41,356 nt of DNA from Thermococcus sp. (GTDB taxonomy: Archaea > Methanobacteriota_B > Thermococci > Thermococcales > Thermococcaceae). The stretch covers positions 1 to 41,356 of the forward strand of contig NZ_WANV01000035.1 in the NCBI RefSeq assembly GCF_015521605.1, given 5' to 3'. The notes under the pieces are model-generated. The model made no database searches. It saw only the letters and a list, made by a program, of their open reading frames with translations, and was not told the DNA's origin. Of this stretch, positions 34,914 through 39,228 are shown one piece after another. Position numbers and translations under genes: made by a program. How positions within the stretch are numbered: the first letter of the stretch is position 1; the number at the start of each line of letters is the position of its first letter.

Positions 34914-35258
34914 TCACCCCATCACCGTTCCGTTCTGCGTGAGTTGATAAAGCAGGCTCTGGTTTGAATAGAACTGGGGCTGGAAGTTGACCATCAGGGT
35001 GTAGCTGAGCATGGTGAAGTAGAGCCAGAACAGGAACCAGCCGAAGAAGGCCTTCCTTAGTATCAGGCGCTCCTCCTCGATGTCGGGCGGCAGCTCCTTT
35101 ATGATGGCCATGACAACCTTATCAATGATTAGGAACATGGCGATGCCTATCATCCAGCCGTACTGGAACTTTGCGGCGGCAATGCCACTGACCAGGCCAC
35201 AGATGAGTCCCCACAGGTAAACTGAGAGTGAAAACTTGTGTTCAATTGCCAGCTCCAC
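34914..35258 (-). CDS. Small three-helix membrane protein
   Basis: A 114-residue protein with three hydrophobic segments (about 10-30, 34-52 and 70-95) and a charged loop between the second and third (KELPPDIEEERLILRK). The size and helix number recall EMC6-type insertase subunits, but I see no decisive motif, so no function is assigned. The start is taken as the GTG at 35258, 5 bases after GGTGA and 35 bases after a TATA box (35289-35297, reverse). A GTG three codons earlier overlaps the ribosome site. It is coupled to rpiA. Confidence 0.75.
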   Translation of the reverse strand: MELAIEHKFSLSVYLWGLICGLVSGIAAAKFQYGWMIGIAMFLIIDKVVMAIIKELPPDIEEERLILRKAFFGWFLFWLYFTMLSYTLMVNFQPQFYSNQSLLYQLTQNGTVMG

Positions 35259-35306
35259 GTTCTTCACCTACGCTTAGCTTTAAAAAGACCTTTTAAAACC
35301 TTTCCG
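35259..35306 (-). promoter_or_regulatory. Promoter of the small membrane protein / rpiA unit
   Basis: On the reverse strand, two AT-rich boxes lie in tandem: TTTTAAAA (about 35289-35297) and TTTTTAAAG (about 35278-35286). The first gives a start near 35268 and a leader with GGTGA before the GTG at 35258; the second would start too late. Confidence 0.5.
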
Positions 35307-36641
35307 TTATCCCGACAGTGTCTCCAGGAACTTGCGGCCCTTATCGGTCAGCCGGTAGTAGACGCGCCTGCCCTTTCTATGGGATTCACCTATCAGACCC
35401 AGGCTTTCAAGCTCACGGAGGTGCTGGTAAACCGCCTGATACTTCAGGGGCTTCTCAAGGGCCTCCCATATCTCGTAGCCGTACATGACCCTCTCACCGA
35501 GAAGCCTCAGGATATCGAGCTTCGTCCCCCCTATGCTGAACTTCTCCCGGGTTTCGGAGTAGTGTCCCTTGAGGCCGGAGCTCGTCACAATGAGCGCTAT
35601 CCTGTCGTCCCTCTCAAAGTACCCCTCCTCCGCCAGCTTGAGGAGGGCTGGGACTATCACCGCCGAAGCGTACTCCGCGAAGATTCCCTCTCCGGCGAGC
35701 AGCCTCTGTCCTAGGTCAAGCTCATCCTCGCCGACCATCACGGCGGTTCCGTCGGTTTCGTGTATGGCCCTGAGCGCGAGCTCCTTCATCACCGGGTTCT
35801 TCACGTAGAGTGCCAGCGCCTTGGTTGGTTCCGCCCTTGGTTCGACGCCCAGAACCTCGCTCGCTATAGGGGAGCATTTCTCAGCCTGCACCGCTATGAG
35901 TCTGGGCATTTCCTCAATGGCCCCTATCTCCATTAGCTCAACGAACCCCTTGTAGATGCTGTAGAGGTTGCTTCCGCTACCGGTTGGAACCACCACGTGG
36001 GTCGGGTTCAGCTCCTCCCACAGCTCGAAGGCGAGCGTTTTCTGCCCTTCCAGGCCGATGAGGTTGCTCTCAGGGGTGACGTTGTAGAGCCCCCTGCCCT
36101 CGGCCAGGCCTTCGGCATAGCTTATGCCCTCATCGACGCTCTCACCGTAGCGGATCAACTTGGCACCAAAGGCCACTATCTGGTTCAGCTTACCCTGCTC
36201 AACCAGCTTTGGGACGACGGTATAGGCGGGTCTTCCTGCCCGCGCAGCATAGGCCGAAAGGGAAGCGGCGGCGTTTCCGTTGCTTGCCACAACAAAGCCA
36301 TTCTCGGCGTAGGGCATACCGTAGGAAATGGCCACCGTTACCAGTCTGTCGCGGAATGAGCCGGTTGGATTCCTGGTTTCGTCCTTGATGAAGACGTTCA
36401 ACCCGAGTTCTTCACCGAGTTTGGCCTTCAGAAGGGGCGTTCCACCCTCGTTCAGGCTGATTACATAGTCCACACCGGGAAGAAGCTCCCGGTACTTCCA
36501 GACACCGGGCTTTCTATTTTTCCAGGCGGAAACGTCCACGGATTCGTAGTCGTACGTTATCCTAAGCGGCTCACCACAGGAGCAGGTTGGGGGGATAAGG
36601 GAGGAGTAGAGCCTCCCACAGCTAGGACAGCGAACCTGCAT
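35307..36641 (-). CDS. Threonine synthase-like protein lacking the PLP lysine, with a C-terminal winged-helix domain
   Basis: A 444-residue protein. Residues 1-25 form a zinc-ribbon-like cluster (C5, C8, C20, C22) and ~55-365 a fold-type II PLP domain most like threonine synthase. The family motif NPTGSFKDR reads NPTGSFRDR, so the Schiff-base lysine is Arg97 (codon CGC on the reverse strand). Other cofactor contacts persist: SNGNAAA (120-126), PTGSGSN and TSSGLKG. Residues 369-444 are a PadR/ArsR-like winged helix (YGYEIWEAL, YQHLRELESLGLI, then a basic wing and YRLTDKG). It could be a regulator that binds an amino acid or PLP. It lies 18 bases after aCPSF1 and is probably co-transcribed. Confidence 0.88.
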   Translation of the reverse strand: MQVRCPSCGRLYSSLIPPTCSCGEPLRITYDYESVDVSAWKNRKPGVWKYRELLPGVDYVISLNEGGTPLLKAKLGEELGLNVFIKDETRNPTGSFRDRLVTVAISYGMPYAENGFVVASNGNAAASLSAYAARAGRPAYTVVPKLVEQGKLNQIVAFGAKLIRYGESVDEGISYAEGLAEGRGLYNVTPESNLIGLEGQKTLAFELWEELNPTHVVVPTGSGSNLYSIYKGFVELMEIGAIEEMPRLIAVQAEKCSPIASEVLGVEPRAEPTKALALYVKNPVMKELALRAIHETDGTAVMVGEDELDLGQRLLAGEGIFAEYASAVIVPALLKLAEEGYFERDDRIALIVTSSGLKGHYSETREKFSIGGTKLDILRLLGERVMYGYEIWEALEKPLKYQAVYQHLRELESLGLIGESHRKGRRVYYRLTDKGRKFLETLSG

Positions 36642-36659: not shown

Positions 36660-38615
36660 TCACTTAAGCCTTATCGCGTCCAGGTTGTTGGGGGCGCGGG
36701 TCGAGATTCCGAACTTCTTGTGAATGCTGGTGCTCAGGTCAAGGCACTTGTGGGGCTCTCCGTGAACTGTTATTACCCTCTCAGGCCTCGGCCTCAGGCG
36801 AGCGATGTAGCTGATGAGCTCCCTCCTGTCTGCGTGGCCGGAGAAGCCGTCGATGGTGTGAACCTCCATGTTCACCTTGACGACTTCGGTCTTTCCGCCC
36901 TCTCCGACCAGCGGAATCTCTCTCAGGCCCCTCTGAACCTGCCTTCCAAGCGTCCCCTCGGCCTGATAGCTGACGAATATCATGCTGTTCTTCGGGTCCG
37001 GGGCGAGCTGCTTGAAGTACTCCACGCTGGGCCCGCCGACGAGCATGCCAGAAGTTGCTATGATTATCGCCGGTTCGCCACTATCTATTATGTCCTGCCT
37101 CTCGCGCGAGTTTGCGACGCTCTTGAATATCGGGTTCAGGAACGGGTTGTAGCCCTCGTGGAATATCTGCTCGCGCAGGTGCTTGCTGAGGTACTCCGGG
37201 TAGGCGGTGTGGATTGCGGTGGCTTCCCATATCATTCCATCGAGGTAGATGGGCACATCTATGCCCCCGACGCGGGCGTACTCTTCAAGGACCATCATTA
37301 TCTCCTGCGCCCTGCCGACCGCCATGGCAGGGATGAGAACCTTACCCTTCCGCCTGATCGTCTGGTGGATGACCTCTATCAGGCGCTTCTCGGCCTCCTC
37401 ACGCGGCATCTGGTAGTCGTTGCTTCCTCCGTAGGTGGACTCCATGATGAGGGTCTCAAGGCGCGGGAACCTGCTGACTGCCGGCTCGAAGAGCCTCGTC
37501 GGGATGAACTTGAAGTCCCCGGTTATGGCTATGTTGTGAAGCCCGTTGCCTATGTGGAGGTGGACTATCGATGAACCGAGTATGTGGCCGGCGTTGTGTA
37601 GGGTAAGTCTCATGTCCGGTGCGATGTCGCGAACCTCGCCGTAGTCGAGGGTTATCGTGTGCTTGATGACCTCCTTTATGTCCCTCGGCCTGTAGAGCGG
37701 CTCGACACCGTTCATCTGCTGTATCTCGATGAAATCCTGCTGGAGGAGCACCATCAGGTCCCTGGTCGGGGGAGTCGTGTATATCGGCCCGTCGAAGAGC
37801 TTGTAGCGGAAGAGGTACGGGAGCATTCCGCTGTGGTCGAGGTGGGCGTGGGTTATGATGATAGCATCGAGTAACCCGGCATCGAGGACGTACCTGAACT
37901 CGGGCGCGTCAAAGTGCGGAAATGCCTTCTTGGGGTCGCGGAGGGCGGCTATGTTAACACCGAAGTCCACCAGAACGTAGCTCTCGTTTGTCTGGACTAG
38001 GAGGGCACTCCTGCCGACTTCGCGGAAGCCTCCAAGGCTGGTTATTCTAATCCATTCGCTTTTCAGCTCGGGTTTGCGGTAGATGTTCCGGCCGACCTGG
38101 CGGAGGAACTTTCTCCTGTCCCTCGCCTCTGCCTGGAGTATCTGCCTTATCGAGTATATGGTCTGGCTCTGAAGCGGCGGCGTCCTTATGACGCGGGGTG
38201 CCCAGTGAACCCTCTGGGTTATCAGGCGGAGCGTTTCGCCGTTCTTCCCTATGACCAGACCGGGCTTTTTGGCCTCTATGAGGACCTCACCAACGGACGG
38301 GTCAAAGCTTATGTTGGTTATCTCGGCCTCCGCCGGGACTATCTGTTTTATCATCTCCTCTGCCCTCTCGGGGGGGAGGAGGACTTCCGGGTCTGGGCGG
38401 ACGCTGATGCGCTTCTTGAGAACCTTGGCGAGGTTCTTGATGAGCTCACCGTCCTGCATTATGGCCTCGGGGTTCTTGACGTATATGACCAGTTCCGGCC
38501 CTTCGAATTCGACATCCGTTATCCTGGCCTCCCTAGGAACCATCTGGCTTATTACGGCCTTTATGTCGCGTAGAATGTCATCAACGAAAGTTTCTCTCCT
38601 TATCAAAGTCACCAC
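36660..38615 (-). CDS. aCPSF1 (FttA), KH-domain beta-CASP ribonuclease and transcription terminator
   Basis: A 651-residue archaeal homologue of CPSF73 that cleaves nascent RNA and terminates transcription. Two N-terminal KH domains (about 1-70 and 80-145, the second with GLVIGKNGETLR) are followed by a metallo-beta-lactamase domain with HAHLDHSG and GHILGS, a beta-CASP domain, and the C-terminal GFSGHADRREL and VHGEPHKC motifs. Length and ends match Pyrococcus homologues. The start at a GTG (38615) follows the proteasome gene by a single base; a second GTG at 38612 is equally possible. The arrangement psmB-aCPSF1 suggests co-transcription. Confidence 0.95.
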   Translation of the reverse strand: MVTLIRRETFVDDILRDIKAVISQMVPREARITDVEFEGPELVIYVKNPEAIMQDGELIKNLAKVLKKRISVRPDPEVLLPPERAEEMIKQIVPAEAEITNISFDPSVGEVLIEAKKPGLVIGKNGETLRLITQRVHWAPRVIRTPPLQSQTIYSIRQILQAEARDRRKFLRQVGRNIYRKPELKSEWIRITSLGGFREVGRSALLVQTNESYVLVDFGVNIAALRDPKKAFPHFDAPEFRYVLDAGLLDAIIITHAHLDHSGMLPYLFRYKLFDGPIYTTPPTRDLMVLLQQDFIEIQQMNGVEPLYRPRDIKEVIKHTITLDYGEVRDIAPDMRLTLHNAGHILGSSIVHLHIGNGLHNIAITGDFKFIPTRLFEPAVSRFPRLETLIMESTYGGSNDYQMPREEAEKRLIEVIHQTIRRKGKVLIPAMAVGRAQEIMMVLEEYARVGGIDVPIYLDGMIWEATAIHTAYPEYLSKHLREQIFHEGYNPFLNPIFKSVANSRERQDIIDSGEPAIIIATSGMLVGGPSVEYFKQLAPDPKNSMIFVSYQAEGTLGRQVQRGLREIPLVGEGGKTEVVKVNMEVHTIDGFSGHADRRELISYIARLRPRPERVITVHGEPHKCLDLSTSIHKKFGISTRAPNNLDAIRLK

Positions 38616-38616
38616 C

Positions 38617-39228
38617 TCACTTTAGAAGAGCCCCTATCTCCTCCTTGCTCAGCTCCCTGTAACCGTCTTTCGTCACGGTAACCAGGGTTATTCCATCCCC
38701 AGTGAAAACATCACGCCTTGTGGCTATCTTTATCGCCTTGAGGGCAAGCTTAATGCCCTCCTCAAGCTTCATGTCTTCGCCATAGCCATCCTCAAGAACC
38801 GCGAAGGCAAACTCCATTCCCGATCCCGCGGCGGTAAACCTGTCCTCGGTAACACCGCCGGCCATGTCTATCGAGTACAGTCCGGGCTTCTCGTCATAGC
38901 CCGCTATGAGAAACCACCCAAAGTACGGCATGAACCTGCTGCCGTGAAGGATGTTAGAAGTCAGCGTAGCAAGGGCCCTCACGCTCATCTCGTTCCCGAC
39001 CTTGGCCCTGTACAGCCTAGCCTCGGCCCTCAGAAGCCTGACGAGCGAGAGGATGTCCCCAACGCTTCCAGCACCGGCCAAGGCCAAGTGGTCGTCTATC
39101 TGGAATACCTTTGTGACGTTCCCTGAAAGCACCATATTGCCGAGTGATGCCCTCTTGTCTGCCGCTAGGACGACGCCGTCCTTACATACAATGCCGACCG
39201 TAGTCGTTCCCTTTAGCTTTTCAGCCAA
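38617..39228 (-). CDS. psmB: Proteasome beta subunit, TTG start
   Basis: A 203-residue precursor of the 20S proteasome proteolytic subunit. The propeptide MAEKLKG is removed so that Thr8 (KG-TTTVG) becomes the N-terminal nucleophile; the catalytic Lys is in DKRAS and the family's SGM-type residues are in GSGMEFA. The start codon is TTG: an in-frame TAA lies directly upstream, no ATG or GTG precedes Thr8, and GGTGT lies 5 bases before. Many Thermococcus species have two beta subunits; which one this is cannot be decided here. It leads an operon with aCPSF1 and the threonine synthase-like gene. Confidence 0.94.

Follow-up and report, generated by a model that had tools for sequence, protein, structure and literature searches.

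A lysine-less threonine synthase homologue fused to a winged helix is a candidate PLP-sensing repressor of vitamin B6 genes in Thermococcales

In Bacteria, regulators of the MocR/PdxR type, which act on pdxST and pdxKU, join a winged helix-turn-helix (wHTH) to a PLP-enzyme domain and control PLP synthesis and uptake through PLP itself. Their wHTH is N-terminal and of the GntR type, and their enzyme domain is an aminotransferase of fold type I in which the lysine is kept. The MocR family has been reported absent from Archaea (PMC5320631). For Pyrococcus furiosus, RbkR and ThiR are predicted regulators of vitamins B2 and B1, respectively (PMC10746257). Each combines a DNA-binding domain with the domain of a cofactor enzyme. 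In the open-access literature that we searched (no subscription papers), we found no description of an archaeal vitamin B6 regulator, and no mention as a regulator of the protein described here.

This protein, hereafter the fusion protein, resembles MocR/PdxR in combining a wHTH with a PLP-enzyme domain and in its proposed control of PLP synthesis and uptake via PLP. However, its wHTH is C-terminal and of the PadR type, and its enzyme domain belongs to fold type II (PALP), with arginine in place of the lysine. It is not a member of the MocR family, from which it differs in fold, DNA-binding domain, domain order, lysine loss and domain of life; its proposed kind, in which a PLP enzyme has been turned into a PLP-sensing regulator, is already known in Bacteria as MocR/PdxR. 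With the threonine synthases (ThrC; NF004170/PRK05638, TIGR00260) it shares the fold, the N-terminal Zn-ribbon cysteines and the PLP contacts, but unlike them it has no Schiff-base lysine and no NSxNPxR motif, carries a wHTH and does not track homoserine kinase (ThrB). RbkR and ThiR are vitamin regulators of the same archaea, with different enzyme folds and vitamins. The PadR family (PF03551) has the DNA-binding domain in common with the fusion protein, whose copy lacks the C-terminal dimerisation helix of PadR; the enzyme domain presumably provides for dimerisation.

The window, meaning the whole stretch of DNA that was analysed, comprises 41,356 nucleotides of a Thermococcus sp. contig (NZ_WANV01000035.1). 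The relevant features, all on the minus strand, are as follows.

34914..35267 (-), small membrane protein gene downstream of the fusion gene (ORF, locus comparison)
35307..36641 (-), fusion ORF of 444 amino acids, threonine-synthase fold plus winged helix (ORF, Pfam PALP and PadR, NCBIfam)
35310..35537 (-), PadR-type winged helix, residues 369-444 (Pfam, PDB PadR relatives, conservation)
35583..36461 (-), PALP (fold type II PLP) domain, residues 61-353 (Pfam, AlphaFold2, PDB matches)
36345..36371 (-), signature NPTGSFRDR, residues 91-99 (sequence)
36351-36353 (-), Arg97, at the position of the PLP (Schiff-base) lysine (sequence)
36660..38615 (-), aCPSF1 (FttA), directly upstream of the fusion gene (ORF, locus comparison)
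38617..39228 (-), proteasome beta subunit, first gene of the run (ORF; identity from orthologous loci)

Pfam recognized the PALP domain at residues 61-353 with 218.7 bits and the PadR domain (PF03551) at residues 377-440 with 41 bits, above the gathering cut-off of 27, while the NCBIfam equivalog NF004170 ("threonine synthase") matched the full length of the protein with 749 bits. An AlphaFold2 model (pLDDT 77.5, pTM 0.74; 15 sequences), a step suggested with the original prediction, resembles threonine synthases, which make up all of its best PDB matches in Foldseek (2zsj, 2d1f, 1uim and 6cgq). Sequence comparison of the C-terminal tail with the PDB recovered the PadR relatives 3l7w, 5dym and 9qbc (E-values given as 2.6e-5 and 3.4e-5). 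Across the orthologue alignment, the winged helix retains Y387, Y389, W392, Q402, A403, Q406, H407, L411, G424, Y428 and Y429 without exception, and the Zn-ribbon-like cysteines 8, 20 and 22 at the N-terminus are invariant, as in archaeal ThrCs. The original prediction, made from sequence alone, had described an NPTGSFRDR signature with Arg97 and an otherwise intact PLP site, a PadR/ArsR-like winged helix at residues 369-444, and a gene lying behind aCPSF1 and the proteasome. All three claims held, with the qualification that the PLP contacts are invariant but the substrate side of the site has been lost.

The loss of the lysine is a fixed property of the family. Arginine occupies position 97 in 63 of the 64 full-length orthologues, in all of which KDETRNPTGSF.DR is constant, and the motif KDETRNPTGSFRDR is invariant apart from a single R-to-K change. 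The arginine is written with all six of its codons (AGG 35, AGA 18, CGC 7, CGA 2, CGT 2, CGG 2) and is therefore kept by selection; the constancy of the motif and this spread of codons exclude a sequencing error. Family f2, another family of the class, has Arg97 as well. Lysine occurs only in a Palaeococcus-like lineage represented by two genomes, in one full-length protein (G002, AAA codon) and one contig-end fragment (G003). In the protein tree, the full-length Lys97 protein is nested among Arg proteins, beside an Arg-bearing relative (G001), with the Arg-bearing f2 proteins as outgroup. By parsimony, this topology favours one change from lysine to arginine at the base of the family and one reversion in the Palaeococcus-like lineage. 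The winged helix is retained in every full-length member, the Lys97 form included. Homologues in which the Lys/Arg change and the helix vary independently would have counted against the original prediction; the Palaeococcus-like protein, with both lysine and helix, is a mild exception of this sort, being a reversion within the Arg group. Both the lysine loss and the wHTH are thus shown by computation.

One explanation follows the annotation: the protein would be a functional threonine synthase whose active site unusually contains arginine and whose helix domain is accessory or regulatory. In its favour are the 749-bit equivalog match and the preservation of the fold and of the PLP-contact residues: Asn123, Gly221/Gly223 and Thr353 are invariant, and we take these, from alignment and family knowledge, to contact the PLP O3', the phosphate and the ring nitrogen, respectively, as in ThrS. 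Against it, the Schiff-base lysine is missing and so is the substrate signature. All nine ThrC-type proteins with NPTGSFKDR that were recovered from ThrBC-type loci are genuine ThrCs with the lysine and read LNSINPFRLEGQKT where Thermus thermophilus ThrS has VNSVNPHRLEGQKT, whereas the fusion family reads [IV]TPE.N.[IV]GLEGQKT, without the Asn-Ser and the Arg of NSxNPxR. The genomic evidence points the same way. Among 74 near-complete genomes, ThrB is absent from 30 of the 52 that carry the fusion protein (hereafter carriers), including that of the window, so the supposed substrate is not made there; it is present in 5 of the 22 non-carriers. Where the threonine pathway exists, separate ThrCs adjoin ThrB. 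A link to threonine biosynthesis was rejected on the ground that presence of the fusion protein is untied to ThrB. With NSxNPxR lost and ThrB lacking in many carriers, the fusion protein almost certainly has neither the genomic setting nor the residues needed to make threonine, as far as can be inferred from sequence and ThrB co-occurrence. We consider the threonine synthase explanation very unlikely and the NF004170 annotation very probably wrong for this family, catalysis being judged here from sequence and gene context. Correcting the database name matters, since it made threonine-auxotrophic genomes appear to own a threonine synthase.

Several other threonine-synthase-like proteins were encountered. 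The window genome, which has no ThrB, encodes three further ThrC-like proteins (L001, L002 and L003, on contigs C32, C15 and C24) that have the lysine within odd signatures (NPTGAFKDR, NPTWSFKDR and QPTGSFKDR) and probably act on substrates other than O-phosphohomoserine. Two haloarchaeal paralogues (L053:4648-7188 and L192:1408-2601) have lost the lysine independently (NPTGTVLDR and NPTGTLLDR). Family f2 encodes Lys-bearing paralogues (L170:1336-2601, L173, L176 and L187) with a KDE[TS]RNPT lead-in (KDETRNPTGSFKDR, KDESRNPTYSFKDR) and no visible PadR tail, and these could be close relatives of the protein from which the Arg family arose.

Of 94 Thermococcales genomes, 67 have an orthologue (one as a fragment), as do four genomes of family f2 (G094-G097); this spread across the order formed no part of the original prediction. 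Breadth outside the class was sampled in one phylum and 14 control genomes only: the controls yielded one weak match below the cut-off, and a search of 393 genomes of the haloarchaeal phylum with the Arg-type motif pattern gave one match, in an unrelated sequence. In the window, aCPSF1 ends 18 bp upstream of the fusion gene, which directly follows aCPSF1 in nearly all carriers. The exception is the Palaeococcus-like genus (L131 in G001, L132 in G002), where it comes directly after genes for spermidine synthase and pyruvoyl arginine decarboxylase and is followed by a phosphoribosyltransferase gene; in family f2 its neighbours are GINS/MCM. In some non-carriers (L124, L128 and L130) the genes on either side are still there and only the fusion gene has dropped out, without a trace, and in several genomes that lost it the small membrane protein gene directly follows aCPSF1. 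With aCPSF1/proteasome, polyamine and GINS/MCM neighbours there is no constant partner, and the neighbourhood was dropped as a clue to function.

Comparison of promoters between carriers and non-carriers revealed a palindrome, TCAAG-N6-CTTGA, directly after the TATA box of pdxS, which encodes PLP synthase. In the window genome this site reads TTTATATTCAAGTTTTTTCTTGAA (G000:C5, reverse strand). All 45 scored carriers, and in addition G043, which was included by hand, have the pdxS palindrome, in the 45 with at least 9 of the 10 consensus positions, several Pyrococcus having a GCAAG variant. A TTATAT box ends exactly where the palindrome starts in 40 of the 45 scored promoters, and a second exact CAAG-N6-CTTG core lies 23-24 bp further on in 22. 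Conservation and placement of this putative operator are thus shown by computation. Only one of 23 non-carrier pdxS promoters has a clear palindrome (Fisher p = 1.3e-15 for association with the fusion protein). It belongs to a 73%-complete assembly (G052) that falls with or beside a carrier (G047) in two gene trees; a further non-carrier (G050) is borderline.

The strict form of the palindrome, TCAAGTNNNNACTTGA, pointed to a second promoter, that of a gene for a membrane protein of about 203 amino acids, which matches the ECF S component family PF07155 with 135.7 bits. ECF-type vitamin B6 transporters PdxU and PdxU2/HmpT belong to this family (PMC9997740). The sole strong PDB relative of the archaeal protein is chain S of 4HZU (2.4e-21), the HmpT/PdxU2 S subunit, whose natural ligand has been reported as pyridoxamine (PMC4860826). 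Among the pocket residues named for HmpT (PMC4860826), W76, Y120, N140 and Q143 are identical in the archaeal S component, and E41D, H84K and Q87E are substituted. The S component is a candidate PdxU/HmpT-like vitamin B6 transporter, its substrate being inferred from similarity.

In most carriers, the S-component promoter has the palindrome directly after its TATA box. With a matrix built from the pdxS sites, 60 of the 66 S-component promoters in carriers exceeded the 99th percentile of shuffles, compared with none of 11 in non-carriers (p = 1.9e-9); several of the six carrier promoters under the threshold read as degenerate sites. In the reverse test, a matrix from the S-component sites recovered 45/45 carrier pdxS promoters and 2/23 of those in non-carriers (G052 strongly, G050 borderline). 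The two promoters are unlinked. The same CAAG-N6-CTTG core, in the same place, is found in the S-component promoter of family f2 as TTTATATACAAG-N6-CTTGTATA (3/3 genomes), and no such core was seen at five relatives in other families of the class, where the fusion family itself was not found. Strict 16-bp operators occurred only at pdxS and S-component promoters or as chance coding sites, in the carriers whose sites were read in context. Without its inner bases, TCAAG-N6-CTTGA was rejected as a genome-wide regulon marker, being too common in coding DNA (8-37 per genome).

All near-complete Thermococcales genomes encode pdxS, the S component or both. The fusion protein is present in 52 of the 64 that have the S component and in none of the 10 that have pdxS only. 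Regulation of pdxS alone was rejected, given that 10 near-complete carriers without pdxS keep the fusion protein and the S-component gene. At both promoters the palindrome has been lost together with the fusion protein, a co-loss that is shown computationally over few loss events. Gene trees place the non-carriers mostly in one Thermococcus branch; the co-loss events are therefore few, and the p-values overstate independence. One carrier (G068) inside this branch provides an added contrast, having the pdxS site without the S-component site.

Two further explanations should be considered. The first is that TCAAG-N6-CTTGA is the site of a different B6 regulator, which disappeared at the same times, and that the fusion protein has a different role. 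The link does rest on co-occurrence over few loss events, and the fusion gene is not adjacent to pdxS. However, this explanation calls for an additional, unseen factor that shows this pattern in two families of the class, whereas the fusion protein already combines a PLP pocket with a DNA-binding domain of the dimeric, palindrome-binding type. We regard it as unlikely; co-occurrence and fit, in the absence of binding data, make the fusion protein the probable owner of the operator. The second is that the protein is a threonine or serine sensor, acting through PLP and an external aldimine, with amino acid genes as its targets. PLP enzymes without the lysine can still form external aldimines, and MocR proteins such as GabR use PLP plus an amino acid. 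Against this, the inspected tdh promoters have no shared operator, presence of the fusion protein is untied to ThrB, the strict operator lies at pdxS and a B6 transporter gene, and the substrate-side residues are lost. Residue 121, which is Asp or Asn in the fusion family and which we place in the loop that, in related enzymes, holds the carboxylate of the substrate, may also speak against an amino acid ligand, without being proof of PLP. An amino acid sensor thus appears improbable. The original prediction had left the ligand as an amino acid, PLP or a PLP-amino acid adduct; because the operator stands at pdxS and a PdxU/HmpT-like gene, and presence does not follow threonine biosynthesis, we narrow it by inference to PLP/B6, and not threonine.

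Our preferred reading is that the fusion protein is a PLP-sensing transcriptional repressor of B6 synthesis and uptake. We consider this likely, with DNA binding and PLP binding inferred; PLP as the ligand and the repressing sign are likewise inferences without binding data. In the proposed mechanism, the fold type II domain, with its PLP pocket kept and its Schiff-base lysine and substrate side lost, would bind PLP reversibly without performing chemistry. Arg97 may provide a non-covalent contact to PLP, and loss of the lysine would turn tight catalytic holding of PLP into reversible sensing. At high PLP, the loaded homodimer would keep both C-terminal PadR-type winged helices on TCAAG-N6-CTTGA; because this operator directly follows the TATA box at pdxS(T) and the S-component gene, the bound dimer would block transcription initiation. 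At low PLP, it would release the operator.

The original prediction, in which an enzyme has become a sensor-regulator and parallels MocR in Archaea with a different PLP fold, is supported, albeit only computationally, by an operator that appears and disappears with the protein. A bolder reading, which we also find probable, is that loss of the catalytic lysine and acquisition of a winged helix converted a PLP enzyme of fold type II into a transcription factor, giving Archaea a PLP-sensing B6 repressor independently of bacterial MocR/PdxR. If so, the path from enzyme to sensor was taken twice for one cofactor, on two unrelated PLP folds, and the fusion protein would be the B6 member of the RbkR/ThiR design and, in the literature searched, the first proposed archaeal B6 regulator, with an operator and a regulon. 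The S component becomes a candidate B6 transporter for Thermococcales, such transporters being a recognised gap (PMC9997740).

The system also offers a visible one-residue switch with a natural lysine revertant as an inbuilt control. In the Palaeococcus-like Lys97 lineage, both B6 operators (pdxS and S component) are intact. The Lys97 form thus keeps the helix and both operators, and the change from lysine to arginine is therefore not strictly required for the regulatory role; lysine loss was more probably tuning than necessity. MocR proteins show that a lysine aldimine can serve a sensor too. The two Lys97 loci (L100 in G002 and L120 in G003) provide a natural control for the role of Arg97.

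Three minor observations concern individual genomes and promoters. In one genome (G077, L117), the fusion gene is broken into two reading frames, one covering residues 18-147 and the other 146-441, by pseudogene formation or sequencing error, and the pdxS and S-component operators are intact. Seven non-carrier pdxS promoters (G019, G021, G033, G050, G055, G065 and G067) share TTCAAATC..(A)ATCTGA a few bases past the TATA box, which may be the remains of an operator that decayed once the protein was gone. In family f2 (L440:1596-2859 in G095), a second gene for an ECF-S-like membrane protein comes after the S-component gene, with which it may form one operon.
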